DNA of 64,000 bases from NCBI GenBank assembly GCA_029861535.1, contig JAOTZC010000011.1, positions 1 to 64,000 of the forward strand. Direction: 5' to 3'. The translations under genes and the position numbers were made by a program. This DNA comes from Gammaproteobacteria bacterium. GTDB lineage: Bacteria; Pseudomonadota; Gammaproteobacteria; Steroidobacterales; Woeseiaceae. The notes beneath the pieces are model-generated. The model was not told the DNA's origin, ran no database searches, and was given only the letters and a program-made list of their open reading frames with translations. The stretch's first letter is position 1, and each line of letters begins with the position of its first letter. Of the stretch, positions 25,352 through 40,318 are shown piece after piece.

Positions 25352-25352
25352 G

Positions 25353-25842: not shown

Positions 25843-25943
25843 CACCATACGGTGCGCTATCGAATATTCAGCTTACGGCGCGGGTGCTGCAGTTGCAAGA
25901 TGTGCGATAAGTGCGGGCAAGCAGTTGAAGCGTATTGTTAGGC
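25843..25943 (-). repeat. attC site 15 (degenerate)
   Basis: An intact GTTAGGC core (plus strand) at 25937-25943 lies next to the stop of the DUF3052-like gene. The inner arm AGCTTACGGCGC and the TGCAAGATGTG loop region are preserved; the other core (25843-25849) is mutated. Confidence 0.65.
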
Positions 25944-25944
25944 G

Positions 25945-26352
25945 TCATTTCCGATGTTCTTTTCGAATCACTAGCTTAAGCCCCGACCAAGTCTCGTCCA
26001 CCGCACAAACTTTGATATCCACCAAACCCAAAGGAAGTGCGATCGTGCGAATCGAGTCCTCGGTCACGCTGGATCGAACACCGGATGATTTTTTTGGCCA
26101 GGACACCCAAATTGCGCCGGTCGGTTGAATCGTTGCCATCATTGCCGGTAGTTTTGACGCGAGCTCCGAGTATGACGTAGTGAAGAAATGCCAAATGTCG
26201 ATTCGTTGTGAAATGCGGCCAGATATCATTACGTCCTTTGGTAATGGACTGACCAAATTGAGATAGTTGGCAGGGGCACCGGAAATTCGAATGCGATGTC
26301 CTTCTTTGATGCCGAGTTTTTTCGCAAGCGGCGTGCCCGAATATCCGACCAC
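25945..26352 (-). CDS. DUF3052-family protein
   Basis: 135 residues from a GTG at 26352 preceded by GGAG. The N-terminal GYSGTPLAKKLGIKEGHRI and later IWVSWPKKSSGV match the DUF3052 family (small proteins of unknown role found in many soil and marine bacteria). It directly follows the GFA gene, and an attC core begins 1 nt past its stop. Confidence 0.8.
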   Translation of the reverse strand: MVGYSGTPLAKKLGIKEGHRIRISGAPANYLNLVSPLPKDVMISGRISQRIDIWHFFTTSYSELASKLPAMMATIQPTGAIWVSWPKKSSGVRSSVTEDSIRTIALPLGLVDIKVCAVDETWSGLKLVIRKEHRK

Positions 26353-26364
26353 TGATATCTCCGA

Positions 26365-26796
26365 TCACTTGTAATCGTCTACGAGCTCACCGTCCGACGA
26401 TGCGTCAAACTGTGGTAATTTATCAACGATGTCGTAAAAGTCCGGTTTTTCGGCGACGAATATATGCCCAATGGTCTCGAGCCCGGTAGGCCCATCAAGC
26501 GCGCCGGCAATAATACCGGTTGCATCCAGGTCGAATGGCTCCCAGAACAAGCTTGAGCCGCATTCACGGCAGAAACCACGCCGTGCGATTTCCGAAGTCT
26601 TGTACCAGCCAAGGCCGTCGTCTTTCGTAATCGTAATGTTCGCTTTTCGAGCTTTGGTATGTGGACCAAAGTTGCCATGTAGGCGCTGGCACATGCTGCA
26701 GTGGCAATTAACCACGTCGCGGAGCGGCCCTCTTACTTCAAATCGGACCTCGCCACAAAGGCAGCCGCCCGTCGTCAATGTCGATTTATTGGCCAT
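26365..26796 (-). CDS. GFA-family zinc protein (second of three)
   Basis: 143 residues with zinc ligands CLCG near residue 13, CHCSMC near 30 and CRECGS near 74, plus the typical FVAEKPDFYDIVDKLPQF ending. It resembles the GFA proteins at 21926 and 30173 but differs through most of its length, so it is not a recent duplicate. No attC separates it from the genes on either side. Confidence 0.87.
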   Translation of the reverse strand: MANKSTLTTGGCLCGEVRFEVRGPLRDVVNCHCSMCQRLHGNFGPHTKARKANITITKDDGLGWYKTSEIARRGFCRECGSSLFWEPFDLDATGIIAGALDGPTGLETIGHIFVAEKPDFYDIVDKLPQFDASSDGELVDDYK

Positions 26797-26871
26797 GATG
26801 GATGTCTCGAAGTACCTATTGTCTATCCAAGCATGATACCGGGCACGGCTGCTGTTTTTATCGTTGGACCA

Positions 26872-27558
26872 TCAAAATGCTCCTGCGATGTAAGTTCGGC
26901 CTGCGATTAGCCCGTCAGGATTAGCGTCGGTGTTGCGGAAATTTGCAGGAATCGATGGACAGTTGTCGCTTCCGGGGAGGCCCGGTAGGGAACCGCAGGG
27001 ATGTAGGGAAAAATGCAAGTGCGGAAGCCCACCCGTGTTGCCAGTATCTCCAGACATACCGATGGTGTCGCCCGCAAGAACTGGCTGACCAATCGTCACA
27101 TGCACACCGTTCAACGTAAGGTGTGAATATAACGCGACTGTATCATCATCATGTTGGATGGTTATCAAGTTAGTTCTCGTTCGATCCCCATCACGGGCGC
27201 CATCCTGCGCATGATCCACGATCCCATCTCTTGCCGCTGTGACGACCGTTCCGATTGGCATTTCAAAATCGTATCCGTATGACCAGAAATCCGAATGACC
27301 AAAGCCCGAGCAGTTGCCCTGGTTGACTCGATACATTTCACCAACGGCGTACGGGAGCACATAGTCAGAATCTTGCCAAATTCCAAAACCGTTGCAGATC
27401 GACGGGGCAGCCCCTGTAGTTTCCGTGGCATTGGTACCGCCGCTCTCGTTACAGGCGCCGACGATAAGTAACGACGCGAGGCTTACTAAGATTCGGATTC
27501 GTAAGTGTTTCTCGTGCAAGAAATGCTGCAGTAACTGGACGAAACGGTGCCGCGTCAT
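26872..27558 (-). CDS. M23-family peptidase lipoprotein
   Basis: 228 residues: a hydrophobic start ending VGAC (lipobox), then a LytM/M23 domain with GHSDFWSYGYDFEMPIGT, HAQDG, and the catalytic GLPHLHFSLH. The usual first zinc motif H-x-x-x-D reads HSDFWSYGYD. Members cut peptidoglycan cross-links or act as amidase activators. The start overlaps the zinc-ribbon gene stop (ATGA). Confidence 0.82.
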   Translation of the reverse strand: MTRHRFVQLLQHFLHEKHLRIRILVSLASLLIVGACNESGGTNATETTGAAPSICNGFGIWQDSDYVLPYAVGEMYRVNQGNCSGFGHSDFWSYGYDFEMPIGTVVTAARDGIVDHAQDGARDGDRTRTNLITIQHDDDTVALYSHLTLNGVHVTIGQPVLAGDTIGMSGDTGNTGGLPHLHFSLHPCGSLPGLPGSDNCPSIPANFRNTDANPDGLIAGRTYIAGAF

Positions 27559-27854
27559 GGCTCCAAATTCCCATGCTTGATTACCAAGGGTGAGAATCTA
27601 GCCTTGACGTAACCAATCGCTCCGATCGGAAAGGAAAACCAGATAATCGCAGCGTAAATACCAAACTGTGATAACACAGCGATCGTGCTGATCAAGGTCA
27701 CTAGGAATATGACAACAAAGAATGCCGTGCCGAAAAACCAGTGCGGCCCGACCAAGTTGCCACAATTTACACACTGGACATTCGATAAAAGCAGGCCAGA
27801 TATCGGAATAGTCGGTTGCGAGCAGGCCGGACAAACTCTGCTATTTTTTAACAT
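27555..27854 (-). CDS. Zinc-ribbon membrane protein
   Basis: 99 residues: an N-terminal C-x-x-C...C-x-x-C zinc ribbon (CPACSQP, then CVNCGNL) followed by two transmembrane helices (about 42-65 and 69-85). This form is common in cassette arrays; function is unknown. It is coupled to the M23 peptidase gene. Confidence 0.7.
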   Translation of the reverse strand: MLKNSRVCPACSQPTIPISGLLLSNVQCVNCGNLVGPHWFFGTAFFVVIFLVTLISTIAVLSQFGIYAAIIWFSFPIGAIGYVKARFSPLVIKHGNLEP

Positions 27855-27922
27855 CTACTTCGACGTTTTCCTCGTTGCAGCTTCAACCGCATTCATTGGG
27901 CGCTTCCATTTGTCGACTGTCG

Positions 27923-28025
27923 GCCCAAGGCCTAAGCTAACTTGTGTCTAGTATCTGGCACGAGCGTCACGGTCGCAAGGTATGTAACATATATGAGCAC
28001 ATGGTAAGTGCAACGACTGCCTAGG
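27923..28025 (-). repeat. attC site 14 (degenerate)
   Basis: The inner block CTAAGCTAACTTG and TAGTATCTGGCAC are preserved. The outer cores are mutated (GCCCAAG and GCCTAGG instead of GCCTAAC and GTTAGGY). The TAG stop of the 28021 gene lies inside the core. Confidence 0.65.
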
Positions 28026-28308
28026 TATCGTTTATTCTATCAGCCGATGGCGTTCTTGAACCGCTATGCTGTGTGGGAAGGCGAAGATCGTGGACATTGT
28101 CGGAGCGAATGAACACGTGAAATGTCTGCTCGGTAGGGTTGTGGCGAATTGATACGTCAGCATCCATCCGAAATTCGGGAATAGTCAGCTTGTCCCCTAG
28201 CCCAATTCCATGTTCCTTGGGCAGTTGAAACACAACGAGAATCTCGTTATGCGATTGAGCACTGCAACTTCGAAGCTGCTCATTCAACCGAATTACGGTT
28301 AATTCCAT
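28021..28308 (-). CDS. Small cassette protein of unknown function
   Basis: 95 residues, soluble, with strands such as NEILVVFQLPKEHG and TFHVFIRSDNVHDL. No family is recognised. It directly follows the 28310 membrane gene, and its stop codon overlaps the attC core, so the two genes share one cassette. Confidence 0.5.
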   Translation of the reverse strand: MELTVIRLNEQLRSCSAQSHNEILVVFQLPKEHGIGLGDKLTIPEFRMDADVSIRHNPTEQTFHVFIRSDNVHDLRLPTQHSGSRTPSADRINDT

Positions 28309-28309
28309 C

Positions 28310-28612
28310 CTAAAACGCCGGAGACGAACGGATGAAAACAGCGATCAAAACCGCAATCAGAACGATTAGAACGGCAGCGTATATGAATCGCCGTTGGCCG
28401 CTAGAAAAGCCGGTGGAACGAACCGCAGCAATGTAGATGCCGCTGACAATCGCGACAAATCCTGAGAGACCCGCAAGCAAGCCGGAGCCCCCGTAAAACA
28501 TGATGCGCTCAGGTTCCTCTTGGATTCCAAAAACGCTTGGATCGGACACCAGTGATAGGCCAATACAAAGCAGGCAAAGGACAGCACTCCCAAAAAATAC
28601 ATTGCGAATCAT
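28310..28612 (-). CDS. Three-helix membrane protein of unknown function
   Basis: 100 residues with three hydrophobic stretches (about 3-22, 42-63 and 78-95) and short polar links. No motif is recognised. It ends 1 nt before the next gene of the same cassette. Confidence 0.55.
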   Translation of the reverse strand: MIRNVFFGSAVLCLLCIGLSLVSDPSVFGIQEEPERIMFYGGSGLLAGLSGFVAIVSGIYIAAVRSTGFSSGQRRFIYAAVLIVLIAVLIAVFIRSSPAF

Positions 28613-28633
28613 GTGTGATGACCTGCTGGCGAA

Positions 28634-28735
28634 AATCGACGCTTACGCTAACAAGATAGCCCGCGTACAGCGCTGTTGTTGCAACCGCCAAAGGCGCAAA
28701 CCAAGCTAGGTGGCGAGTGCAGCGAGCTGTAAGAC
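28634..28735 (-). repeat. attC site 13 (degenerate)
   Basis: The spacing matches the good sites: AATCGAC at 28634 in place of GCCTAAC, then CGCTAAC, TGTTGTTGCAA, GAGTGCAGCGA and GTAAGAC in place of GTTAGGC at 28729-28735. Confidence 0.65.
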
Positions 28736-28742
28736 GGCGGTT

Positions 28743-29204
28743 TCAAAGCCATCGTCTGACACTTCGTTTGTATTCGATGTACGGATCACCAAATGTCTTT
28801 TCCAGGGCCGCTTCTTCATGCCTAATGAACTTGGTTTGAATAATCCAAACGAAAACCGGAACCAGCACGAACGGGCTGGCGGTTCCAAAGAGTGTGGCGA
28901 TACCAAGAAGAATTGTGGTCATACCCAGATACATGGGGTTTCTCGTAATCCGGTACATCCCATCAGTTAATAAATGTGTCGAATCATCGAACGGCTTTAT
29001 CGCCGTTCCCACTTTTCCAAACGCGACAGCAGGCCAAATCATTATGAATAGACCAAGGGCGATTAATACGGCGCCCACATAAGTGACAGGAGCATGCAAA
29101 ATTGTCTTTATGGGAGCGAAGTAGTTGAGGCCGATCATAAATAATGTCGCCGCCAATAAATATACCGGGGGCAGAATTTTGCGGCTTTGATTTACTGAGG
29201 ACAT
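28743..29204 (-). CDS. Isoprenylcysteine methyltransferase-like membrane protein
   Basis: 153 residues with four hydrophobic helices and the ICMT/PEMT C-terminal signature: GMYRITRNPMYLGM, then EEAALEKTFGDPYIEYKRSVRRW. Bacterial members are integral-membrane SAM-dependent methyltransferases of unknown substrate. Cassette-borne. Confidence 0.85.
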   Translation of the reverse strand: MSSVNQSRKILPPVYLLAATLFMIGLNYFAPIKTILHAPVTYVGAVLIALGLFIMIWPAVAFGKVGTAIKPFDDSTHLLTDGMYRITRNPMYLGMTTILLGIATLFGTASPFVLVPVFVWIIQTKFIRHEEAALEKTFGDPYIEYKRSVRRWL

Positions 29205-29216
29205 TGACTGTGCCGG

Positions 29217-29296
29217 TTCATGATCGTCTCACAGAATACGGCGCACATGTCGCTGCTGCAAGCGGCTTGAGGAATCGAGAATTACGAGCGGAGCGG
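29217..29296 (-). repeat. attC remnant
   Basis: GAATACGGCGCACATGTCGC and GCTGCAAGCG keep the inner pattern of the array's attC sites, and GATAGCTAGC stands where GTTAGGC is expected. Outer cores are lost. Confidence 0.4.
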
Positions 29297-29300
29297 ATAG

Positions 29301-29726
29301 CTAGCTAATGGCACGCGTTGAGTTTTTTTTAAATGGCCGTGGACGAACCCAATACCAGCTAACAATGACAATGGCGGCGAAAACGGTATAGCAAACGGTA
29401 AATACCCATGCAGGAGCTCGATAATACAAGAGGGCCTCAAGCCAGTGTGAAATAAAGGACCCAGAGTATGCGACTTCACCGGCACGTTCCCGGAGTGCCA
29501 TTTCCCACGTCGTGAGTGGGCAAATAACGCCGATCCAGGACTGCAATACGACAATTCCAATCGCTGCTAGGTGTGCGATTCGAAACCATGGATTTCGCAC
29601 CCAGTCCCAGTCGCGGAATTTGCCAACAAAAATCAGTACCAAGCCGAAGACGACGAATGCGACGAATGACACATGGCCGAATAGAAGCAAATCGGCAGCA
29701 AGAAGAAATGCGAAGTCGTGCTCCAT
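29301..29726 (-). CDS. DUF2784 membrane protein
   Basis: 141 residues with four transmembrane helices and the DUF2784 pattern: LHxxFVxFVV-type first helix (LLFGHVSFVAFVVFG), RIAHL, and CPLTTWE (here ICPLTTWEMALRERAG). Function is unknown. The start is 9 nt from an intact GCCCAAC core at 29735. Confidence 0.85.
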   Translation of the reverse strand: MEHDFAFLLAADLLLFGHVSFVAFVVFGLVLIFVGKFRDWDWVRNPWFRIAHLAAIGIVVLQSWIGVICPLTTWEMALRERAGEVAYSGSFISHWLEALLYYRAPAWVFTVCYTVFAAIVIVSWYWVRPRPFKKNSTRAIS

Positions 29727-29734
29727 GTGTGCCG

Positions 29735-29790
29735 CCCAACGTCAAACAAAGCGATATCGAAACCTAAGCGCAATCCTCGGATGGATGTAT
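29735..29790 (-). repeat. attC remnant (one core only)
   Basis: GCCCAACGTCAAACAAAGC matches the start of the good sites (GCCTAACGTCTAAGCTAAC) at the right distance from the DUF2784 start. The palindrome and the second core are missing before the DUF4404 stop at 29797. Confidence 0.45.
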
Positions 29791-29796
29791 CTTTCT

Positions 29797-30060
29797 TCAA
29801 ATTCCCATGCGGGCAAGCGCCTCGATAACCTCTCTCATAAAGCGCTCGGCGGTTGGGTGTTCCGTCGCGAAGTTCGCCTCCAGCGACTTGGCTCGTTTCA
29901 AGATGGATTCTGCCTCCGACTCCTCGTCACTTGAGTCCAGCAAATCGTGAATGTCAGAATCAAGTTCCCGAACCAAGGATTGTGTGTCGTCGTCCAACTC
30001 TGTTTTTTTGATCTCGTCTTGTAGTTTGGCCAGGAGTTGTCGAATTTGTTTATTGCTCAT
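29797..30060 (-). CDS. DUF4404-family protein
   Basis: 87 residues from ATG 30060 (MSNKQIRQLLAKL). It is wholly helical and acidic, with a DLLD core and the ERFMREVIEALARMGI ending typical of DUF4404. Function is unknown. An in-frame upstream ATG at 30111 adds 17 residues that do not fit the family. Confidence 0.75.
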   Translation of the reverse strand: MSNKQIRQLLAKLQDEIKKTELDDDTQSLVRELDSDIHDLLDSSDEESEAESILKRAKSLEANFATEHPTAERFMREVIEALARMGI

Positions 30061-30091
30061 TATCCTATTATCGCTGAAAAACCCAAATGCG

Positions 30092-30166
30092 CCTACTAAC
30101 GTCGAAACCATTTATCGCGAAAGCGTCAAAGGTCGCAAAATCATTCGAGTCAGCGACTTGATAGAC
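30092..30166 (-). repeat. attC remnant
   Basis: CCTACTAACGTCGAA at one end and CAGCGACTTGATAGACGG at the other resemble the two attC ends of this array (compare CAGCGACTTGTTAGG at 33664), but the site is shortened to about 75 nt. Confidence 0.45.
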
Positions 30167-30172
30167 GGCATC

Positions 30173-30592
30173 TCAAAAGGACTCAGGCCCGAAGCCCGGT
30201 GGCCATTTGTCGAATTGCGGGAGACGGTCTGTTATTTCATGCCATGGCGCTTTTGAGCCCACAAAAATATGTGCATTGGGACGTAATCCTGGATCACCTG
30301 TGACCGTGCCGAGCGTAACCCAACCCAATTTTCCACCTTCGCTGACAGCCCCCAAAGGAGATCCGCATTGACGGCAAAAACAGCGAAAGCCGCCAGGTGA
30401 CGATTCATAAGTAGTAATGAGATCCTCACCAGACAGCCATCTGAACTCGTCTTTATCAACGCGCGCATAGGTACCAAACGCAGCGCCGTGCGTTCGACGA
30501 CACATGGAACAATGGCAGTTTCCGGCGTCATGCAGCGTACCGAGAACCTCGTATTGAATGCCGCCACACAGACAGCCACCTTTGATTGTCAT
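30173..30592 (-). CDS. GFA-family zinc protein (third of three)
   Basis: 139 residues with CLCGG near residue 7, CHCSMC near 26 and CRQCGS near 73, and the HIFVGSKAPWHEITDRLPQF ending. A single-gene cassette: attC site 12 begins 9 nt from its start and a remnant follows its stop. Confidence 0.88.
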   Translation of the reverse strand: MTIKGGCLCGGIQYEVLGTLHDAGNCHCSMCRRTHGAAFGTYARVDKDEFRWLSGEDLITTYESSPGGFRCFCRQCGSPLGAVSEGGKLGWVTLGTVTGDPGLRPNAHIFVGSKAPWHEITDRLPQFDKWPPGFGPESF

Positions 30593-30600
30593 AATTACAT

Positions 30601-30714
30601 CCCTAACTAGTTCTAATCGTCCGCGCTAACGAGATGACCAGCTTACGGTTCGAAGGGTGCCTCATACAAGCATTTCGACAGTAGCCGGTTCTCTTGTGCA
30701 GCACATTGTTAGGT
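30601..30714 (-). repeat. attC site 12
   Basis: Outer cores CCCTAAC (30601-30607) and GTTAGGT (30708-30714), inner CGCTAAC and CCAGCTTACGG, then GTGCAGCACATT. The TAA stop of the 30709 gene is the TTA within the GTTAGGT core. Confidence 0.8.
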
Positions 30715-30945
30715 GGCATTTACGTCATCCTTGATTCGTTGCGCGTCCGCTTCTGCGCGCATCAACAGATCATCTTGGTCAGTCCCCGATAGACTAATAG
30801 TGCGTCCCCAAGGATCCGTGCCGTAAATCGACCAGGCACCTGCAGAAGTTTCTTCGAGCCGAAAGAACCAACCCGTAGTCTTTCCCCTAATCGGGTATGT
30901 CTTTAGCAGTTCTTCGTCGGGTTTACGCGAGACTTCCTGCGCCAA
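30709..30945 (-). CDS. Small cassette protein of unknown function
   Basis: 78 residues, soluble and charged, with a WFFRLEETSAGAWSIYG segment and a helical acidic C-terminus. Its stop codon lies in the attC core. The segment between its start and the divergent permease gene (30946-31116) has no attC. Confidence 0.55.
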   Translation of the reverse strand: MAQEVSRKPDEELLKTYPIRGKTTGWFFRLEETSAGAWSIYGTDPWGRTISLSGTDQDDLLMRAEADAQRIKDDVNAT

Positions 30946-31072
30946 TTTTTCGTGCCCCCTATCTATTAGTCGTTACCCAAAAATCACGAGTAGCCGTTGA
31001 AAAAGCAGGATAACATGAGTTTCAGTTAACGAGGGGATTGAAAATACGGGCCTTCACGAAAGCCATATTGAA

Positions 31073-31078
31073 TATAAT
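31073..31078 (+). promoter_or_regulatory. Possible -10 box for the fetB-like gene
   Basis: A perfect TATAAT lies 39 nt before the TTG start in an AT-rich stretch. No convincing -35 hexamer is at the right distance, so the call is weak. The gene opposes the array and would need its own promoter. Confidence 0.35.
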
Positions 31079-31116
31079 AAAGTTCATTTTATTGAAGCCA
31101 AGCGCCAGGATCAGTT

Positions 31117-31812
31117 TTGACGGAAATTAGCTTTCAAGGCCTTTCTCTGGCGTTCTTGCCCACAGTCGTTGTTTTTACAATCATGTACTTCTGGGCGGCA
31201 GATATTGGCACGGGCATCTACGCAACGATTCGCATGCTCGTGCAGCTTCTGCTGATTGGCTACGTTCTTATATTCATCTTTGAGACCAATCAGCCATTGG
31301 TTATTGCCGCGGTCTTGCTGGTCATGTTGCTTGTTTCTAGTGGCATCGCGATACGACCGATCGCGAACAAGTCGATGCGTACGTACTATCGGGCGCTGAT
31401 CGCGATAACTCTGAGTAGCTTGATTGTGCTAGGACTCGTTACTCAGGCGGTTATTGGCGTAGAACCGTGGTTCAGTCCACGTTACGTGGTGCCGCTGGCC
31501 GGCATGATTATCGCCGGTTCAATGAATGCAGTTAGCCTTGCCGGTGAGCGCATGCAGGTCGAACTTAGTCGTGGCGAGCCATACATTGTCGCGCGACGAA
31601 CCGCATTCAAGGCGTCGATGATCCCAATCATCAATTCACTGCTCGCGGTCGGTCTGGTTTCATTGCCGGGCATGATGACGGGGCAGATTCTGAGCGGCGT
31701 GTCGCCGCTGATTGCAGCGAAGTATCAGATCGTCGTCATGAACATGCTGTTTGGCGCAATAGGCATGTCTTCGGCGCTGTACCTACTCCTCAGCCGGCCG
31801 AGTTCGAAGTAA
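31117..31812 (+). CDS. FetB/UPF0014-family ABC transporter permease
   Basis: 231 residues with about seven transmembrane helices. The family signatures are TIRMLVQLLLIGYVL, VPLAGMIIAGSMNAVSLAGERM, SRGEPYIVARRTAFKASMIP and LPGMMTGQILSGVSPL. FetB pairs with ATPase FetA in iron export; no FetA gene is adjacent. It is the only plus-strand gene in the array and starts with TTG. Its 3' end runs into half of an attC site. Confidence 0.9.
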   Translation: MTEISFQGLSLAFLPTVVVFTIMYFWAADIGTGIYATIRMLVQLLLIGYVLIFIFETNQPLVIAAVLLVMLLVSSGIAIRPIANKSMRTYYRALIAITLSSLIVLGLVTQAVIGVEPWFSPRYVVPLAGMIIAGSMNAVSLAGERMQVELSRGEPYIVARRTAFKASMIPIINSLLAVGLVSLPGMMTGQILSGVSPLIAAKYQIVVMNMLFGAIGMSSALYLLLSRPSSK

Positions 31813-31815
31813 CAA

Positions 31816-31887
31816 TACCGCGGTTGTTGCGGCTGAAAGGCGAGTAACAGATATAATCCAAGCGGCAAGTGCAACGTACTATTAGTG
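31816..31887 (-). repeat. Half attC site beside fetB-like gene
   Basis: The right half is clear (TTGTTGCGGCTG, AACAGATATA, GGCAAGTGCAACG, core ATTAGTG at 31881-31887). The left half (GCCTAAC to TATCTGG) is missing and replaced by the end of the permease gene. The stop of the 31882 gene is in the core. Confidence 0.65.
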
Positions 31888-32421
31888 TGACTTTCGGCGT
31901 AGGTAGGTGAGAATTACATCACGAGAGTTATGGCCAGCTAGCCAGTCGTTCAACTCAACGACTTTCTCGTAGTCGGAGCCCAACAGCGTTTTCAGTCGCT
32001 CTCGTTTCATTTTCTCCAAAGACTCGTTTACGATTTTTCGTTGCCACGGTTGTGTCAATATTGTATTTAAATGATCGGACCCTGCCAGCGCTTCCACTAG
32101 ATTCCATTCTCCTTCATCCAGCCAAATGTCTTCGCAACTAGCACAGTAGTCGATACGATTGGGAGAGTCGGCCGATATTCGGTATTTTGTCATTAACGCG
32201 CGGCACTTGCCGCAGGCGATGGCATCTTTGGAGTCGTCAACTGACACATTGGTGGGGGGCTGGTCGGGTTCCTGGGACGGATGGCTGGTCTCTCGCCATC
32301 GTCGATACGCGACTAGGCTAACTAACAGCCCCTCACAGTTTGGGCACATATGCACGGGCAGAGTCTCGGAAATGAGCGTGTGTTTTAGCCCGGTGTGGGA
32401 ACAAGATGGACAAGTAGCCAC
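31882..32421 (-). CDS. Double zinc-finger (zf-TFIIB-type) protein
   Basis: 179 residues with two TFIIB-like zinc ribbons: CPSCSHTG...CPNCEGL near residues 4-32 and CGKCRALM...CASCEDIWLDEGEW near 70-105. The second contains the family's WLDEGE motif. The C-terminal part is helical and basic. Function is unknown; members are often small cytosolic or membrane-associated proteins. Confidence 0.8.
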   Translation of the reverse strand: MATCPSCSHTGLKHTLISETLPVHMCPNCEGLLVSLVAYRRWRETSHPSQEPDQPPTNVSVDDSKDAIACGKCRALMTKYRISADSPNRIDYCASCEDIWLDEGEWNLVEALAGSDHLNTILTQPWQRKIVNESLEKMKRERLKTLLGSDYEKVVELNDWLAGHNSRDVILTYLRRKSH

Positions 32422-32433
32422 TTCAACTCCTCA

Positions 32434-32536
32434 CGCTAAGGTCTAAGCTAGCTTTGTGCACAGCGTAGGGCGCGATCGTTGTAATTGCAAGATCTGTGAA
32501 TCCAGCACGGCATGCGAGTGCAACGCAAAGTTAAGT
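32434..32536 (-). repeat. attC site 11
   Basis: Cores CGCTAAG (32434) and GTTAAGT (32530-32536), inner GTCTAAGCTAGC and GAGTGCAACGCA. The core TTA provides the TAA stop of the 45-residue reading frame. Confidence 0.75.
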
Positions 32537-32668
32537 CTTCCCTCCCTCATATTTGTCTAACATTTCAAGCATCAGGTCATCATCATCCGCGAGATCGTTG
32601 ATCAAGTAAAATTTCGTATCGTTTTTGATGTATCCTCTTTTGCGTATCGTCAAGTGGCACTTGTGCAT
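32531..32668 (-). CDS. Small 45-residue cassette protein
   Basis: A short frame (MHKCHLTIRKRGYIK..., ending KYEGGKT) fills the 117 nt between the upstream membrane gene and attC site 11. Its start overlaps that gene's end by 19 nt and its TAA is the TTA of the attC core, exactly as for neighbouring cassette genes. The N-terminus is basic and the C-terminus strongly acidic (four consecutive Asp). No family is recognised and no ribosome site is obvious, so expression is inferred from layout only. Confidence 0.45.
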   Translation of the reverse strand: MHKCHLTIRKRGYIKNDTKFYLINDLADDDDLMLEMLDKYEGGKT

Positions 32669-33066
32669 TGAGCAAGTTCATGCTGGTAGAACCACTTGCC
32701 AATCAATGCGCCAGATATCGCTGCAATTATCATCAGAATTAACCCGGTTATTCCGTCCGCCGCAACTTTTGCGAAACTGATATCAGTTGCGGCGCGTGCA
32801 ATATCGTAAAGAATGTAAGTGACAATACCCCACATCACAACTGCAATTAAAACTGCTGGGCCGATGAAGTTTCGCCGCGCCACTACAGCACCGACAGCGA
32901 CGGCGAAAAAATATCTGATTGCTGAGTTGATTTGCGCCCAAAGAGCAACTTGATCGAAGTTGCTCAGCTCCGCGTCTAGCCGAGGAGAATAGGGGTTGAG
33001 AAGGGCTCCTATGCCCAAAACAATCAAGATAGCGGCAATGAGGCGTTTGGTTTCACTCACGATCAT
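32650..33066 (-). CDS. Membrane protein of unknown function
   Basis: 138 residues from ATG 33066 (MIVSETKRLI), 8 nt from the attC core at 33074. An in-frame ATG at 33129 lies inside the attC and is rejected. Four hydrophobic helices are visible, with a two-Arg loop (VVARRNF) in the middle. No family is recognised. Confidence 0.6.
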   Translation of the reverse strand: MIVSETKRLIAAILIVLGIGALLNPYSPRLDAELSNFDQVALWAQINSAIRYFFAVAVGAVVARRNFIGPAVLIAVVMWGIVTYILYDIARAATDISFAKVAADGITGLILMIIAAISGALIGKWFYQHELAQCTSAT

Positions 33067-33073
33067 TCCTACC

Positions 33074-33177
33074 ACCCAATATCCAAGCCAGCTTGCACCT
33101 AGTATCTGGTACCAGAGTTGCGGCTGCAAGGCGAGCGACAGATACGCCCGGATTGCAAGCGCAGCGCATAGTTAGGG
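33074..33177 (-). repeat. attC site 10
   Basis: Cores ACCCAAT (33074-33080, one mismatch) and GTTAGGG (33171-33177), with TAGTATCTGG paired to GACAGATACG and GAGTTGCGGCTGCAAGG in the loop region. Confidence 0.8.
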
Positions 33178-33201
33178 TCCATCTTGTGCCCGACACTCAA
33201 C

Positions 33202-33573: not shown

Positions 33574-33575
33574 GG

Positions 33576-33678
33576 AACTCAGCATCTAAGCTAACTTGAA
33601 TTTAGCTTACGACGCGGAAGTTTCGCTTGCAAGATTTGTGACGAAAGCCAGAGCTACAAGAGCAGCGACTTGTTAGGT
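33576..33678 (-). repeat. attC site 9
   Basis: Inner ATCTAAGCTAACTTGAA and TAGCTTACGACGC pair with GTGACGAAAGCC. The core GTTAGGT is at 33672-33678 and its TTA is the HAD gene's stop. The other core is mutated (GAACTC). Confidence 0.8.
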
Positions 33679-34284
33679 AACACTTGCTACGGAGAACGAC
33701 TCTAAGCCGCCGAGCTTTGGGCCGACAGGTATGAAGCCCCAGCCCAGTGCGTTGCAAGCATCTCGATCCCATGGTCCATCACCGTAGTATGTGACTGAAT
33801 CAAATGACGTTCCAAGGTGGGAAAGGGCAGTTAACATGATACGTGTTCGATCGTATTCGGCGTCCGATGTCGCGATTGGGATACAGGACGTATCAAACCC
33901 CGCCGATCTGAGTTTGAGCTCTGCCGTGACTCGCCATCCGCCTGTCGCGATCGCCACTGTGTGATCATTGGAACTACGAAGCGACTTCAGCAGATTTCTG
34001 GCGCCTGGAATTTCGATAAATGGCCCATTCTTGAGTATGTGCCCTTCCAATGCTTGAACGAAGTGCTTTTTGATTGAGTCCGTCGGGTCCGAATCAATGG
34101 AAATGTCGTTATCTTCGAGGATTTGGGAGAGGATTCCGGAGTCTGATACGTACTCATAATCAGTTAACGACGGACGAAATCGAACCGGGCCGAGAATATA
34201 GCTTACTGATTGTCGATACAGTTGATCGTCAACTTCGGCAGAATGAACAAGCGTGCCGTCAATGTCGAAAATTACGGCATGCAT
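33673..34284 (-). CDS. HAD-superfamily phosphatase
   Basis: 203 residues with HAD motif I FDIDGTLVHS (about 6-15), motif II ATGGW, the motif III lysine region, and motif IV YYGDGPWD. The helical cap after motif I indicates a small-molecule phosphatase of the phosphoglycolate type; substrate unknown. Single-gene cassette. Confidence 0.87.
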   Translation of the reverse strand: MHAVIFDIDGTLVHSAEVDDQLYRQSVSYILGPVRFRPSLTDYEYVSDSGILSQILEDNDISIDSDPTDSIKKHFVQALEGHILKNGPFIEIPGARNLLKSLRSSNDHTVAIATGGWRVTAELKLRSAGFDTSCIPIATSDAEYDRTRIMLTALSHLGTSFDSVTYYGDGPWDRDACNALGWGFIPVGPKLGGLESFSVASVT

Positions 34285-34291
34285 CTGTGTT

Positions 34292-34392
34292 ACCTAACGT
34301 CTAAGCTAACTTGAACTCAGCTTACGACGCACTTGTTGCTGTTGCAAGAAGTGTGACGAAAGCCAAGTTGCAAGTGCAGCGCATTGTTATAC
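34292..34392 (-). repeat. attC site 8
   Basis: Near-perfect: cores ACCTAAC (34292-34298) and GTTATAC (34386-34392), CAGCTTACGACGC paired with GTGACGAAAGCC, loop TTGTTGCTGTTGCAAG. Confidence 0.9.
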
Positions 34393-34415
34393 GGCGCTTC
34401 GACTACCTGGATTGA

Positions 34416-34820
34416 TTAACCGGCCTTGAGACACCCTTTCATGTCAATGTATGCAGTATCGATTAGCTTCCATAGAGCTGCAGCGTCAACCTCACCTTCT
34501 GGCCTGAGCTTCACATGACGCATGAACTTGCCAGTGCCTTCCAGCAGACCGTTCGGATCGTTAAGCTCGGCTCCACGGAAGAACCCGACATTGACGTGAG
34601 CTTTGAAGGCGTTTACGTAGGCGAATGCCGCGTCAGCTACGCAGGCGGTCGGATGGCCGTCATGCAATAGCTCTCTAACATCGTCTCCGCAGTCGCGCAT
34701 GACATCAAACCAATACTTCGCGATTGCACCCAACTCGTCCGAGTGCTCATTCATCCAAGCCTCGATGTCAGGATCTCGCTTGACTGAACTGGGGAAACGC
34801 ATGAGCCGAATCATAGGCAT
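34416..34820 (-). CDS. DUF1801-family protein
   Basis: 134 residues from ATG 34820 (a GTG at 34841 is also possible). The C-terminal part, AYVNAFKAHVNVGFFRGAELNDPNG followed by KFMRHVKLRP, is the DUF1801 YdhG-like signature. Members adopt an SCP-like fold of unknown function and are frequent in cassettes and phage-like islands. Confidence 0.82.
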   Translation of the reverse strand: MPMIRLMRFPSSVKRDPDIEAWMNEHSDELGAIAKYWFDVMRDCGDDVRELLHDGHPTACVADAAFAYVNAFKAHVNVGFFRGAELNDPNGLLEGTGKFMRHVKLRPEGEVDAAALWKLIDTAYIDMKGCLKAG

Positions 34821-34873
34821 AATGTGTCCAAGCGGCGCCACGACGCTCGAATATCTAGCCGTGGACCTCAGGC

Positions 34874-34979
34874 GCCTTAAATCGTCAATGATAACTTGAG
34901 GACCAGCTTACGGTGGGGTTCTTGCCACTGCAAAAACCGTGACGGAAGCCGGTCATGCAAGTGCAGCGCATTGTTAGGC
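34874..34979 (-). repeat. attC site 7
   Basis: Core GTTAGGC at 34973-34979 and mutated GCCTTAA at 34874-34880, CCAGCTTACGG paired with TGACGGAAGCCGG, and CAAGTGCAGCGCATT intact. Confidence 0.8.
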
Positions 34980-35102
34980 GGCTGATACCCGAAAACCATA
35001 CGGAGACCGACTACAGCCATGACGTTCAGTTAACTCCTCCGTACGAATACGCTTAGCGTAAAAAATCCTGCTTTCGCCCCGCGCGATCTTATGACAGCCG
35101 AT

Positions 35103-35819
35103 TTACTGCCTGGCCAACTCCTGATCGAGCAAAGCCACGACGTCCTCGGCTTCCTGCAGTAATAGTTCGAGCTCGCGAGCTGCCTCGGCGGCATATCCTC
35201 CGACCGGACTCAGGTAACCGATGACCTCTGTATCCCAGATCAGCGTGATACTACTCGCTCCGCATTTTTCAAGCATCGGGTTTGCCCAGCATGCTTCATC
35301 CATATCTTGAATGGGCGAGATATCGACATTTTTCACCAATGCCGCGTGCAGCATGGGGCCCCATTGAGTACGGAGCAACTGCTCATTTTCCGTAGCATCT
35401 ACCACCAATCGAGGCCAGTGGGCCAGTGCTTCTCGTATGCGTGAATTGCTGATGTAGCGCAGCTCTCCGGATTGCAGGATGGCATCCAGAGCACCAGTTT
35501 GTGGGTCGGTCGATCTATTTTGAATCACTTGCGCTAGCTGCGCGGTATCGAAGGTAAATGTGCCGCCGGGTCCGGCAGCCTTCATCGCATCGTTGAGCGC
35601 CTTTGCGTAGTGGACAGATCGCCGATGCGCCTCAATGAAATTAGGAAAGTACGCCACGTTGGCCTGAAACTCGGTTCTGAGCGATTCGAGAATCCGACGT
35701 TCTTCAACGCGGTTCTGGCGTTCTTCCCACCAAGCATCGATGGCGAACGCCACCAAAATACTCGCAACGATTAATATGCCCTCGGCGAGCAGGTTCTGGG
35801 ATCGCTCATTCATGTGCAT
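35103..35819 (-). CDS. Membrane-anchored coiled protein (DUF6090-like)
   Basis: 238 residues. A hydrophobic helix (GILIVASILVAFAIDAWWEERQ, about 13-31) is followed by a long charged helix (VEERRILESLRTEF) and a helical body. The AFAIDAWW-E-R block at the end of the membrane helix is typical of a widespread family often listed as DUF6090. The topology suggests one N-terminal anchor with a soluble domain. Between its stop and attC site 7 about 120 nt (34980-35102) hold no clear gene. Confidence 0.65.
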   Translation of the reverse strand: MHMNERSQNLLAEGILIVASILVAFAIDAWWEERQNRVEERRILESLRTEFQANVAYFPNFIEAHRRSVHYAKALNDAMKAAGPGGTFTFDTAQLAQVIQNRSTDPQTGALDAILQSGELRYISNSRIREALAHWPRLVVDATENEQLLRTQWGPMLHAALVKNVDISPIQDMDEACWANPMLEKCGASSITLIWDTEVIGYLSPVGGYAAEAARELELLLQEAEDVVALLDQELARQ

Positions 35820-35844
35820 GGCGGAGGATTAGCATTGGATAGCC

Positions 35845-35948
35845 GCGTAACGTCTAAGCTAATTTGCGCTCAGTATCTGGCGCAAAGCTTGCTTGATGCA
35901 AGCTTTGTGACAGATAGAGAAGGCGGCAAGTGCGGCGCATTGTTAGGT
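35845..35948 (-). repeat. attC site 6
   Basis: Cores GCGTAAC (35845) and GTTAGGT (35942-35948); CAGTATCTGGCGC pairs with GTGACAGATA; loop AAGCTTGCTTGATGCAAGCTT. Confidence 0.88.
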
Positions 35949-35950
35949 TT

Positions 35951-36304
35951 CTAGTGGTACGGACCGAAAAGTGAGGACTGAAACGGCGCCGGCAGCTTCC
36001 GGACTTTTTGCTCCGGTTGTTCTCGCAACACTCTTAGACGACGGTTTGCCTCGCGGCACTGGGCTATAACTGCGACTTCAGCTCCCGCTAGTATGGATCC
36101 AACCAGGACTACGAAGATTGACCGCGCTGCGCCGAAGGGAAAGTAGCCGTCCGAGATCGATTGAATTATCGCCGTCACTGCAGTCATGACGTACACAAGG
36201 CCGGCGACTGCGAACGGAAACAAGATAACCGCCAACGTCACGTAAATCGTTCGGGATTGTCTAAGCGACGAATCAAGTTCTATCGTTTCGGCGGTGCTAC
36301 GCAT
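35951..36304 (-). CDS. Two-helix membrane protein of unknown function
   Basis: 117 residues with two membrane helices (about 20-45 and 62-82) and a basic C-terminal tail. No family is recognised. Its stop is 2 nt from the attC core and its start about 20 nt from the next. Confidence 0.55.
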   Translation of the reverse strand: MRSTAETIELDSSLRQSRTIYVTLAVILFPFAVAGLVYVMTAVTAIIQSISDGYFPFGAARSIFVVLVGSILAGAEVAVIAQCREANRRLRVLREQPEQKVRKLPAPFQSSLFGPYH

Positions 36305-36325
36305 TGCGGCACTTTTTCTACTGCA

Positions 36326-36429
36326 ACCTAACGTCTAAGCTAACGGGTAGCCAAGTATCTGGCGCACATGTTGCGATTGCAAGATGTGTGACAGATAGGC
36401 AAGAGGGCAAGTGCAGCGCATTGTTAGGC
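36326..36429 (-). repeat. attC site 5
   Basis: Both cores are perfect (ACCTAAC at 36326, GTTAGGC at 36423-36429). AAGTATCTGGCGC pairs with GTGACAGATAGG. Confidence 0.9.
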
Positions 36430-36447
36430 AGCGCCTTTTTCATACGT

Positions 36448-36978
36448 TCAGTCTGCAATACATTCAAAGATAATTGAAACAACAGCGTCATTGTCATCGA
36501 CGTCAAAAGTAACATCGGCCCGATAGACATGAACTCGATTAAGCCGTATCAACTCCTCTGAGACTTCCAATACTTGCGCGTACTTTTTGACGCTGTCGCC
36601 GAACTTGACGCCTTGGGCCAGTTCGGAAGGTTCAGATATTTTCAATCGGCGAAGCCACGTTGAAGGTCCGTAGAACGAGAAAAAAGTAAATGAAGTTAGC
36701 GAAAACCCGGGGAACTGCCAGGTCATTATGTGATTGGTTACTCTGGGTTCCTTGTGATCCAATTCCTCCGACTTTCGCATCGTTCCCTTGGCGTAATCGA
36801 ACTTAATCAATGCCTCATTTGGATCGAATTCCTCTCGACACGTCGACGTTCTGGTATGAATCTCCAGCGTTTCCCTCACAAAATTGTCGATTGGACTATC
36901 GGCTAGCGCTATTTGTCCCGACGCAGGCAACGGTAAAGCCGCCGCTAGGATCGGCAGAAAAAGACTGAAATCTCTCAT
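36448..36978 (-). CDS. Secreted protein of unknown function
   Basis: 176 residues with a signal peptide (hydrophobic 4-20, ending ASGQ). The mature protein contains strands and two cysteines (about 47 and 173). No family is recognised. Single-gene cassette; the start is 12 nt from attC site 4. Confidence 0.6.
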   Translation of the reverse strand: MRDFSLFLPILAAALPLPASGQIALADSPIDNFVRETLEIHTRTSTCREEFDPNEALIKFDYAKGTMRKSEELDHKEPRVTNHIMTWQFPGFSLTSFTFFSFYGPSTWLRRLKISEPSELAQGVKFGDSVKKYAQVLEVSEELIRLNRVHVYRADVTFDVDDNDAVVSIIFECIAD

Positions 36979-36990
36979 TGTCCGTGCGTT

Positions 36991-37093
36991 GCCTAACGTC
37001 TAAGGTAACGAGACACCGAGCGTACGGCACGCATGTTGCCCGATGCAAGATGCGTGACGGTCGCGGGCGTGCTAGCGCAGCGCATTGTTAGAG
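36991..37093 (-). repeat. attC site 4
   Basis: Core GCCTAAC at 36991-36997 and GTTAGAG at 37087-37093, whose TTA is the stop of the TPR gene. GCGCAGCGCATT is conserved; the inner stem differs from its neighbours (CGTACGGCACGC with GCGTGACGGTCGCG). Confidence 0.88.
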
Positions 37094-37723
37094 TGCAGTT
37101 TCGCCGACGCAAACATCGCGATACTCAATCGGAACGAAATTTGCAGATACTCCCTCGTTCTCTGACTTAAGCAACTTGGCGCGATTCGATTCAGCAGACG
37201 CCGCATCAGTTCTTCCAAGTCGTCTAAGTGCGTCCGAGTATCCCTCGAGGAAATACGCGTACCCGACCGGATCGTCCCGTAGAATGCCGAGTTGCTCCAC
37301 TACTGGAACTGCTTCGCTGTAGTAGTTCGCCGATTGTTCAAATTTCTCGAGATCGAATGAAAGACGCGCAAGCTCAGACAATCGTTTCGCAATGTTGACT
37401 GGATCGGGCGTCTCTAGGGCCCGCTCGGTAGCGAGAGCTTCCATTAACAACTGCTCCGCAGATTCAAAATCACAGGTATAGCCATGCATCCGACCAAGGT
37501 TATAGAGGACTGCGGAAATGTAACTAGGCGGTGCGCCCGCTAAATCGGCATTAATTAGGGCTCGATTGAAGGCCTCGCGCGCACGAGCGTAATTGCCCGA
37601 GAATTCGTTCTCAAGGCCAATTTCGTAGTAACGATCAGCATTGTACCGATTAATTGGTGCCGCACAGCTCGCGAGAAATATAAGTGCAGAAAATATGCCG
37701 ATGTGTCTCAGAACTGCGGTCAT
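37088..37723 (-). CDS. TPR-repeat lipoprotein
   Basis: 211 residues: lipobox LASC, then TPR-type helix pairs (YYEIGLENEFSGNYARAREAFNRAL, then SAVLYNLGRMHGYTCDFESAEQLLMEAL, then ARLSFDLEKFEQSANYYSEAV), about four units. Likely a periplasm-facing scaffold. Single-gene cassette with its stop in the attC core. Confidence 0.78.
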   Translation of the reverse strand: MTAVLRHIGIFSALIFLASCAAPINRYNADRYYEIGLENEFSGNYARAREAFNRALINADLAGAPPSYISAVLYNLGRMHGYTCDFESAEQLLMEALATERALETPDPVNIAKRLSELARLSFDLEKFEQSANYYSEAVPVVEQLGILRDDPVGYAYFLEGYSDALRRLGRTDAASAESNRAKLLKSENEGVSANFVPIEYRDVCVGETAL

Positions 37724-37733
37724 GATTCCTGCG

Positions 37734-37854
37734 CTCTAATGTCTAAGCTAACTTGCGCCCAGTATCTGGCGCGGTTGTTGCGAAAGCAAATGTGAGGAGA
37801 TTGCAAGAGCCGTGACAGATACGATAAGGCGGCAAGTGCAGCACATTGTTAGGT
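37734..37854 (-). repeat. attC site 3 (long variant)
   Basis: At 121 nt it is longer than the rest because of a 20-nt insertion in the loop (AATGTGAGGAGATTG). Cores are CTCTAAT (mutated) and GTTAGGT (37848-37854), with CAGTATCTGGCGC pairing to GTGACAGATACG. The TTA of GTTAGGT is the cupin stop. Confidence 0.82.
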
Positions 37855-38181
37855 TGCAGATTGGTTCTTGGCTTCAAACCAAAATTCTATTTCCGAAGTA
37901 TCGATTTGAAACCTCGCTGAATGCCTTTGTCCGCGTAACAAATGGTACCAATCGCCTGGGCCGTAGCGTTTCTCCGTACCGTCAACAGTAAGGAGAAGCT
38001 CACCCTGCGTAATTACGCCACAGTTTTCCGTCGGGTGGGTATGTGTATCAATTTCGGTCCCCGCAGGGTAAGAAGCGAACAAAACCTCGCAGTTAGATGC
38101 GTTGAGTTGGTAGGCGTCAAATGGACCAGCGAAGGGCGGTAGTGACTTGATTAGGTCAGGGAAGTGGTCGGTTTCAGCCAT
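37849..38181 (-). CDS. Cupin-domain protein
   Basis: 110 residues, one cupin barrel: motif 1 G-T-E-I-D-T-HTHPTE-N with metal-binding histidines, motif 2 YGPGDWYHLLRGQRH. Possibly a small isomerase, dioxygenase or sugar-binding protein; substrate unknown. Single-gene cassette. Confidence 0.87.
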   Translation of the reverse strand: MAETDHFPDLIKSLPPFAGPFDAYQLNASNCEVLFASYPAGTEIDTHTHPTENCGVITQGELLLTVDGTEKRYGPGDWYHLLRGQRHSARFQIDTSEIEFWFEAKNQSAT

Positions 38182-38194
38182 TGTTTCTCCTGTC

Positions 38195-38296
38195 GCCTAT
38201 CGCTATAGCTCACTTGCAGCCGGTATCCGGCGCGAAGCTTGCCTAAGCAAACTCCGTGACAGAGACGCAAGCGCCAAGTGCAGCGATTTGTTAGAC
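38195..38296 (-). repeat. attC site 2
   Basis: Cores GCCTATC (38195-38201) and GTTAGAC (38290-38296). CGGTATCCGGCGC pairs with GTGACAGAGACG; GCCAAGTGCAGCG is conserved. Confidence 0.85.
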
Positions 38297-38303
38297 GGCG
38301 GCC

Positions 38304-38993
38304 TTAGCACCGCTTTGCCACAAGCACTTCGGATGGTACTCCGAAAGCCACCACCTTCGAGTGGTGCTGCAGTTGCCATTCCGAGTCCTGTATAAACGGC
38401 AGAAGATCGACTGGACGGCAACCGCCGACCAAAGAGGGACGATGAGCTTGAATCCAGCCCACCACTGCCGCCACGATCCGCGATGTAAGACCAAATCCGC
38501 TGGATAGCCCCGACAAGCAGAGCAAACCGCCCGGGCTAAGCATTCGGTGGGCTTCGCGAAGCACAGCCCGAATATCCTCATGGGAAAGTAGATCGAAGAC
38601 GTAGTTTGACACGAAGCGATCATAGAACTCAGCGGATTCATCAACTGGTGGACCGCCTTCAGTAAGGATTACCTCCGCCCGCGACGAGTATGACGCGAGG
38701 TGTGTCTCGGCCAGTTGAACCATCTTTGGGCTAACGTCTACCCCTCGGTAACGCGCCGTATTGGGCAAATAGTCCTCGAACAGCCGCCGCGCGAAGCGGC
38801 CTGTTCCACAGCCGAACTCGAAGACGGACACCGCGGAGGCGAAATTTCCATGCAGCAGAACTAAAGCAGTGGCACGATCCTCGTAAAAGCACTGCGAGTC
38901 TTGGAGCGAACCGATTCGATTATACGTTTGCCTCGCTTCTTGGTGGGACAGCGTACTCAATTTCACTCCTAGCCCTGCGAGTACATTCTGCAT
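38304..38993 (-). CDS. Class I SAM-dependent methyltransferase
   Basis: 229 residues with motif I VFEFGCGTGRFA near residue 57-68, the acidic strand VDVSPKMVQLAE near 85, and motif post-I FVSNYVFDLL and LSPGGLLCLSG. Substrate unknown. First cassette after moeA; its start lies only 4 nt from the attC core. Confidence 0.88.
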   Translation of the reverse strand: MQNVLAGLGVKLSTLSHQEARQTYNRIGSLQDSQCFYEDRATALVLLHGNFASAVSVFEFGCGTGRFARRLFEDYLPNTARYRGVDVSPKMVQLAETHLASYSSRAEVILTEGGPPVDESAEFYDRFVSNYVFDLLSHEDIRAVLREAHRMLSPGGLLCLSGLSSGFGLTSRIVAAVVGWIQAHRPSLVGGCRPVDLLPFIQDSEWQLQHHSKVVAFGVPSEVLVAKRC

Positions 38994-38997
38994 TGCT

Positions 38998-39099
38998 GCC
39001 TAACATCTAAGCTAACTTGAACTCAGCTTACGGCGCGCTTGTTGCGACTGCAAGAAGTGTGACGAAAGCCAGCGGTACAAGTGCAGCGCATTGTTAGGC
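38998..39099 (-). repeat. attC site 1, directly after moeA
   Basis: Both cores are perfect (GCCTAAC 38998-39004, GTTAGGC 39093-39099). CAGCTTACGGCGC pairs with GTGACGAAAGCC; loop TTGTTGCGACTGCAAG. It begins 11 nt past the moeA stop with no attI-like or integrase sequence in between. Confidence 0.92.
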
Positions 39100-40313: not shown

Positions 40314-40318
40314 TGTCT

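Follow-up and report, generated by a model that had tools for sequence, protein, structure and literature searches.

An integron cassette array without an adjoining integrase gene between moeA and rho in a Woeseiaceae bacterium

Clusters of attC sites that lack an integrase gene, known as CALINs, have been counted nearly as often as complete integrons or slightly more often (2961 versus 2760) and carry almost six attC sites on average; the accessible part of the survey that gives these figures (PMC9024848) takes at least two clustered attC sites with no adjoining IntI as its working definition. The sedentary integrons of Xanthomonas occupy a single ancestral site in the genus, the ilvD locus, where intI has been inactivated repeatedly and the arrays have been kept, and positional decay of attC is not discussed in the accessible text of that study (PMC12444791). 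In Treponema phagedenis, attC sites and cassettes persist as an integron remnant after the loss of intI, as described in the accessible part of PMC3607928.

Here we describe a new example of this already known kind, found in a window of 64,000 nucleotides (the whole stretch of DNA that was analysed) from a bacterium of the Woeseiaceae. Like a CALIN, it pairs a cluster of attC sites with short cassette genes in a single orientation and has no adjoining intI, but it is larger than the average, combines a fresh with a decayed part and holds a tentative attI-like stretch inside. It shares with the Xanthomonas integrons an old genus site with repeated intI inactivation and retained arrays, whereas lineage and locus (moeA-rho) are different; unlike in T. 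phagedenis, open, broken and absent intI occur here within one genus. The feature is wider than first described, and is accompanied by a second array in the same genome and by relatives that indicate how the integrase was probably lost. Its main points of interest are a gradient of ageing along the array and an interval that may be a graveyard of former cassettes.

The array and its attC sites

Because Rfam at gathering score had no match in the window, we modelled attC anew, with a covariance model (R1) trained on 13 of the 16 window sites. It finds 16 minus-strand attC sites above background, all of one polarity, plus one truncated site, in an array that spans about 21.9-39.1 kb; the 16 score 22-112 bits within 25845-39099. 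The earlier note had asked whether most attC model scores would fall below threshold; with R1, 16 sites reach at least 22 bits, against 9.7 bits for the best match outside the array in the whole window. R1 also recovers S14, S15 and S17, which lay outside its training set (E 8.5e-5, 1.1e-5 and 3.1e-8), and 11 untrained matches on a different contig of this bacterium. Several of the palindromes match R1 more weakly on the opposite strand (up to 26.2 bits). The array placed earlier at 25843..39099 is thus real, but its left edge is not, since it runs on to rho; our recount comes close to the former 15 attC sites and four remnants without being identical. The GCCTAAC...GTTAGGC cores ascribed to the sites occur as a perfect pair in S1 only, many right-hand cores being eroded. 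When both cores were required in canonical form, which is too strict for decayed sites, the search returned no more than S1, S5 and a pair at 29734-29858 that R1 did not support.

The proximal end is marked by the conserved chromosomal gene moeA (39111..40316; Pfam MoeA_N, MoCF_biosynth and MoeA_C), which like all features below is on the minus strand unless stated otherwise; gene families are those of Pfam. Eleven nt past its stop lies the best-preserved site, S1 (38998..39099; 112.3 bits, fold z -3.37, box score 33.2). There follow a methyltransferase cassette gene (38304..38993; 78% identity to a gene in the G077 array locus), S2 (38195..38296; 80.8 bits, box 29.6, fold z -0.94), a cupin gene (37849..38181) with homologues at the moeA loci of G027 and G015, S3 (37734..37854; 95.6 bits, fold z -4.03, box only 19.6), a TPR-protein gene (37088..37723) and S4 (36991..37093; 93.1 bits, fold z -2.66, box 29.1). 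Three cassette genes to which the Pfam search assigned no family (36448..36978, 35951..36304 and 35103..35819) precede, respectively, S5 (36326..36429; 99.2 bits, fold z -3.58, box 33.8; 89% identical to two sites on contig C67), S6 (35845..35948; 96.4 bits, fold z -4.44, box 28.5) and S7, with an eroded right core (34877..34979; 92.6 bits, fold z -2.88). A DUF1801 gene (34416..34841), S8 (34292..34392; 108.8 bits, fold z -3.69, box 26.8) and a HAD-type hydrolase gene (33673..34284), with homologues at the array loci of G032, G027, G014, G028 and G070, come next.

Towards rho the sites are worn. S9 has largely lost its folding (33577..33678; 89.8 bits, fold z -0.33), and S10 (33074..33177; 85.6 bits, fold z 0.01; overlapping an ORF at 32650-33129) and S11 (32434..32537; 70.6 bits, fold z -0.38) are decayed. 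Beyond a zinc-ribbon gene (31882..32421; 51% identity to a gene in the second array locus of G015), the truncated S12 (about 31820..31888; 10.8 bits, E 0.49) adjoins a UPF0014 (FetB-like) gene (31117..31812, plus strand), the sole plus-strand ORF taken as a gene in the array. Past the tentative attI-like remnant (30955..31020) lie the decayed sites S13 (30612..30714; 70.1 bits, fold z -0.57) and S16 (27923..28026; 70.5 bits, fold z 0.76) and the remnants S14 (29203..29306; 22.1 bits), S15 (28634..28735; 24.8 bits, fold z 0.10) and S17 (25845..25943; 32.4 bits, fold z 0.71). An old distal part with GFA, DUF3291, cold-shock, glyoxalase-family and unknown genes (21926..25835), where no attC was detected, leads to the conserved chromosomal gene rho at the distal end (20427..21857, plus strand).

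An independent test used box matrices built on 20 attC sites that lie upstream of intI at nine other loci, whose IntI are 50-54% identical to the genus query; these foreign sites, which vary considerably in full length, were sought in 37 of 80 loci, giving pairs in nine and none in 28, and one L139 pair was dropped. Against 20 Markov-simulated windows read on both strands (best score 24.5), S1, S2, S4, S5, S6 and S8 scored 26.8-33.8, above every simulated window. S7, with a shifted right box (24.2), and S16 (22.7, where 0.25 matches at 22 or more are expected per simulated window) were borderline; S3 (19.6), S11 (19.1) and the remaining sites were not separable from simulation. Folded as the bottom strand, seven of 15 sites (S1 and S3-S8) stand clearly above their shuffled versions, no more than 3 of 200 of which do as well, and S2, S9-S11, S13 and S15-S17 do not. 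The hairpin folding named by the earlier note as a check thus fails for eight of the 15, in an ordered way: apart from S2, the failures all lie towards rho.

With 16 sites of at least 22 bits in 13.3 kb and no neighbouring IntI, the earlier classification as a CALIN stands. The array is flanked by chromosomal genes, moeA and rho, in an order shared with relatives, rather than by those of a transposon or plasmid, and none of the 30 array proteins matches a transposase family in Pfam. The moeA-rho locus is fixed and common to relatives, as in sedentary chromosomal integrons; a functional intI-attI platform is not present, as intI is absent and the window holds a weak attI-like remnant. Eleven of the 30 array proteins lack a Pfam match at E <= 0.01, in agreement with the former statement that many cassette genes are of unknown function.

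Probable loss of the integrase

A tblastn search of the window and the C67 array stretch with the IntI of four relatives gave nothing better than E = 0.11. Across the assembled genome, which is 76% complete, no IntI appeared at 1e-30 and an IntI model found nothing above its cut-off (best 82.9 and 69.7 versus 265 bits). In two genomes of the same genus, intI stands directly after moeA, as an open frame of 319 aa in G075 and broken in G032; other genomes of the genus have arrays after moeA without intI. Sites of the attC type follow moeA in six of 20 relatives' loci (one a partial match), and in 12 of the 20 a distance of 0.8-14 kb separates rho from moeA. On the purD/purH side G032, G027 and G015 have the same gene order as the window, and on the rho flank G015 does. 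Nine of 61 genus genomes, the studied one included, have at least three attC sites without an IntI match at 1e-30. The likeliest account is a local loss of intI from what had been a sedentary chromosomal integron.

We therefore regard the array, with high confidence, as a degraded sedentary chromosomal integron at the old genus locus moeA-rho, from which intI was later deleted and whose distal attC sites eroded most. IntI would once have added cassettes at an attI beside moeA, shifting older ones towards rho. A later deletion would have taken intI together with the proximal attI and probably the gene of the first cassette, so that S1 now directly follows moeA. Cassettes could then no longer be gained or excised at the locus unless IntI acted from elsewhere, and mutation would have worn down the attC sites, the distal and oldest most, while many cassette genes stayed open as fixed genes. 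The decayed sites are probably inactive.

That IntI does act from elsewhere, with an integrase encoded in the unsequenced part serving the attI on C67 and the well-folded sites S1 and S3-S8, seems unlikely to us, although several observations favour it. Contig C67 of the same genome bears a second array that keeps its attI, with an intact GTTAGGC core and 31 bits to a profile built without it, and attC sites up to 89% identical to S5; the assembly lacks roughly a quarter of the genome. However, neither this attI nor the attI-like stretch in the window has an adjoining intI in the available sequence, and the distal window sites have lost their folding. Copying of genes between the two arrays was considered and rejected, as no more than two protein matches, short or weak, connect them. 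At 76% completeness, the genome leaves room for an IntI elsewhere.

The attI-like stretch itself is 71% identical to the C67 attI over 62 nt, with an alignment score of 26 where 2324 slices of the window elsewhere give at most 15; against four attI of other genomes it scores 7-13, under background. A profile of seven IntI-adjacent attI sites did not pick it up at E <= 10, and we keep it as tentative because adding three more sites gives 7.9 bits, E 2.3. It may mark an older platform. The module S1-S12 lies on its moeA side, an arrangement that simple insertion at attI fails to explain. The neighbouring UPF0014 gene has homologues in 40 of 61 genus genomes, the studied one included, and none at 20 relatives' moeA loci; arrival with its own upstream region was rejected, as a comparison with the sequence around the copies in 19 relatives showed no resemblance.

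It is rather improbable that intI was never here and that an IntI from elsewhere put cassettes at secondary sites by moeA. Such off-target insertion is a proposed origin of CALINs (PMC8618304, in its accessible part), and the genome holds, besides its second array, a lone weak attC-like site on contig C26 (31.3 bits), while G070 has an attI-headed attC array on its contig C29 in addition to the integron on C27; yet intI sits exactly at the moeA locus in two relatives, and the array is long, one-way and graded by age. A mis-joined metagenome contig that created the array or the absence of intI is very improbable: assemblies often break at arrays, and in seven of 11 regions the contig stops no more than about 1.2 kb from where intI starts, but both flanks are collinear with G015 and the sites decay in an orderly way along the contig. 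That the palindromes belong to another intergenic family is barely conceivable, for although folding in eight of 15 sites is not clearly above shuffles, the boxes of six resemble those of attC in unrelated integrons more closely than any simulated window does, and similar sites follow IntI in G032, G075 and G070.

Decay with position and a possible fate of old cassettes

In the array of the window, attC score falls with distance from the moeA end (correlation rho -0.79, 16 sites). We pooled the window with arrays from 11 further genus genomes and the second array of the studied genome, leaving out opposite-strand duplicates, partial matches at contig ends, S12 and the four-site L086; sites under 85 nt carry no folding values. 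The decay holds across 15 arrays and 147 sites (rho -0.61, p 2e-4) and with the window excluded (rho -0.59, 14 arrays, 131 sites), and folding energy per base rises with distance (+0.57; 14 arrays, 136 sites). Two of 16 arrays show no fall in score (L085 0.00, L090 +0.10), and folding measures are reversed in a few (in L037, energy -0.40 and core pairing +0.80). The C67 array shows little decay (rho -0.27); an integrase may therefore have been active recently, which weighs against our reading. A literature search of titles and abstract openings, which covered few subscription papers, returned nothing on an attC decay gradient or on Woeseiaceae integrons.

Complete moeA-rho intervals are available for 12 relatives, and 11 of these were compared (L031, a cassette supplier, was omitted): 13 stretches, several of them weak, match cassette genes inside the interval at places where attC was undetected, and none do so outside, the outside regions being mostly housekeeping genes and thus an imperfect control. 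Three stretches in the distal part of the window (21926..25835) match relatives' array proteins at 34-52% identity. We tentatively raise a wider possibility, which we think somewhat less likely to be right than wrong: integrons may be one-way gene ratchets with an age axis, in which attC sites decay outwards from attI, distal cassettes can no longer be excised and become permanent even with IntI, the loss of intI freezes the array, and the moeA-rho interval of the genus is a graveyard that gradually filled with cryptic former cassettes.

The origin of individual CALINs is often open, and the finding of open, broken and missing intI at one spot in relatives reveals a likely route. If valid in closed genomes, positional attC decay would serve as a relative clock of cassette age. 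The array also encodes a group of small proteins, most of them untested. The share of ordinary genes that entered genomes as cassettes becomes testable and, if the ratchet reading is true, cryptic former cassettes may make up some of the ordinary accessory genome of a species.

The attC array between moeA and rho

The array lies on contig C18 of a genome (G000) of 2.57 Mb in 71 contigs that is 76% complete. Pfam matches place moeA (39111-40316, minus strand) on one flank and rho (20427-21857, plus strand) on the other, and the stretch between them is filled with small genes, all but one on the minus strand, with attC sites interspersed on that same strand (S1-S17, numbered from moeA toward rho). 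Three GFA-family genes occur in the array (21926-22330, 26365-26796 and 30173-30592); GFA-like genes recur in arrays and moeA–rho intervals of the genus.

A genus covariance model, trained on 13 of these sites (S14, S15 and S17 stood outside the training set), scored 16 minus-strand matches between 25845 and 39099 at 22-112 bits, picked up several of these palindromes more weakly from the opposite strand (≤26.2 bits) and reached no more than 9.7 bits outside the array; the truncated S12 scored 10.8 bits. As an independent test, we turned to nine loci that encode an integron integrase, IntI, with 50-54% identity to the genus query, and built box matrices on the 20 attC sites lying upstream of it. 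Because the box scores of six sites (S5, S1, S2, S4, S6 and S8; 26.8-33.8) exceed the maximum of 24.5 on both strands of 20 Markov-simulated windows, the core of the array is attC by an outside standard. S7 (24.2, right box shifted) and S16 (22.7) were borderline, S3 (19.6), S11 (19.1) and the remaining sites fell inside the simulated range (about 3 per window at ≥18), and sites beyond the core rest on the genus model. All are predicted recombination sites. When 15 sites were folded as the bottom DNA strand, each against 200 shuffles, seven (S1 and S3-S8) were equalled by at most 3 shuffles. Folding did not rise clearly above shuffles for S2 (32/200 folded as well), S9 (70/200), S10 (99/200), S11 (68/200), S13 (62/200), S15 (103/200), S16 (157/200) and S17 (159/200); S2 excepted, these all lie toward rho.

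Integrase search and attI platforms

The genome has two Phage_integrase matches, which are XerC and XerD, judged from their neighbours (DUF484 and HslV; DsbC). With the IntI model these XerC/XerD-type genes reached 82.9 and 69.7 bits, below its 265-bit cut-off. The IntI of G075, a genome of the same genus, had no match at 1e-30 in the 76%-complete genome, and IntI proteins from four relatives found nothing better than E = 0.11 in the window and the analysed stretch of a second array.

This second array (contig C67, 106720-112189; locus L066, 13721-19190) has ten full attC sites and one partial, reaching near the contig end, and adjoins ThiF-family (moeB-like) and endonuclease/exonuclease/phosphatase-family genes. 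At its head is an attI (31 bits, E 1.3e-7, by a profile of seven IntI-adjacent attI sites) without intI, since the gap between the attI match and the preceding gene is only ~65 bases. Among 150 aligned sites, those of C67 are nearest to window S5 (89%) and S3 (84%), suggesting that the two arrays shared an integrase. One isolated, weak attC-like site, away from any array, scores 31.3 bits on contig C26 of this genome (L067 2966-3061). Another genome, G070, has an IntI-bearing integron on C27 and a second attI-headed array on C29 (L095 8470-8546), as though a single integrase had served two platforms.

Within the window, 30955-31020 resembles the C67 attI (71% over 62 nt; alignment score 26, against ≤15 elsewhere in 2,324 window slices). 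Against four attI of other genomes it scored 7-13, below background; the seven-site profile did not find it, and a second attI profile gave 7.9 bits. A UPF0014 (FetB-like) gene (31117-31812, plus strand) adjoins it, placed and oriented as intI would be; 40 of the 61 genus genomes (window's genome counted) have this gene, and it is absent from all 20 relatives' moeA loci. Because of this attI-like remnant and the gene in intI's place, we tentatively read the array as two putative modules, fresh (S1-S12) and old (S13 to rho), a reading that leaves the fresh module's place on the moeA side unexplained.

The locus across the genus

Directly after moeA, and convergent with it, G075 carries an IntI with an open frame of 319 aa and G032 a broken one, and in both genomes attI and attC sites come next. 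At moeA, G015 too has an attI (30.8 bits), with no intI there. G032, G027 and G015 keep the window's gene order through purD, purH and the genes further out. At E ≤ 0.01, attC matches occur in 6 of 20 moeA-downstream loci, one of them partial.

Twelve of the 20 loci contain both moeA and rho, with 0.8-14 kb between them. Searching 155 proteins from genus arrays against 11 of these (L031 left out; E ≤ 1e-6) yielded 13 matched stretches within 86 kb of interval, spread over eight loci; the roughly 128 kb outside gave no match, a contrast biased by the housekeeping genes there. Twelve of the 13 run in cassette direction; six are only 22-35% identical, three of which match one GFA-family protein. 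No attC was found at E ≤ 0.01 in 10 of the 11 intervals, and the other has a partial match. This pattern fits interval genes being former cassettes that lost their attC sites.

Counting the window's own, 21 of 61 genus genomes have attC matches (E ≤ 1e-5) and nine have IntI matches (E ≤ 1e-30); nine have at least three attC without IntI at 1e-30, one of which, G015, keeps an IntI remnant of 100 bits. Among the 25 genomes that are ≥90% complete with ≤5% contamination, seven have attC and one has IntI (the broken copy of G032), all open-IntI genomes falling outside this filter. Contigs that carry IntI often break off next to the gene (in 7 of 11 regions, no more than about 1.2 kb away), and passages of PMC9024848 note that draft assemblies inflate counts of arrays without intI. 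From these counts, intI looks to have been lost repeatedly with arrays retained, subject to that inflation. The genus has another favoured site for integrons, at glmS, which adjoins intI in G028 and G016 and an attC array in G014 (L011, L014 and L083).

attC decay and origin of the array

Ranked from the moeA side, attC scores in the window drop with rank (rank correlation -0.79). The pooled correlation is -0.61 over 15 arrays and 147 sites (both G000 arrays and 11 further genomes) and -0.59 without the window (14 arrays, 131 sites), with p = 2e-4 either way by within-array permutation, the minimum possible from 5,000 permutations. Model-free measures (14 arrays, 136 sites) follow rank too: core complementarity falls (-0.40), as does core pairing probability (-0.42), and folding energy per base rises (+0.57). 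Of the 16 arrays, two have no score drop (L085, 0.00; L090, +0.10), the C67 array is almost flat (-0.27), and folding measures are reversed in a few, most clearly L037. Because the G070 array adjoining an open IntI also declines (score -0.41, energy +0.78), attC ageing proceeds even while the integrase gene is present.

The window array belongs to an already known kind: passages of PMC12444791 describe arrays kept without an integrase at an ancestral locus of the Xanthomonas chromosome, and passages of PMC3607928 integron remnants in Treponema. Our search of open-licence papers met neither ordered attC decay nor the putative graveyard interval of lost-site cassettes between moeA and rho. Off-target insertion, intI loss and rearrangement are the origins proposed, in passages of PMC8618304, for CALINs (attC clusters lacking IntI). 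Rearrangement may lie behind the two-module structure. Of the three, our data favour intI loss at moeA–rho, where intI would most likely have been deleted from an old integron.
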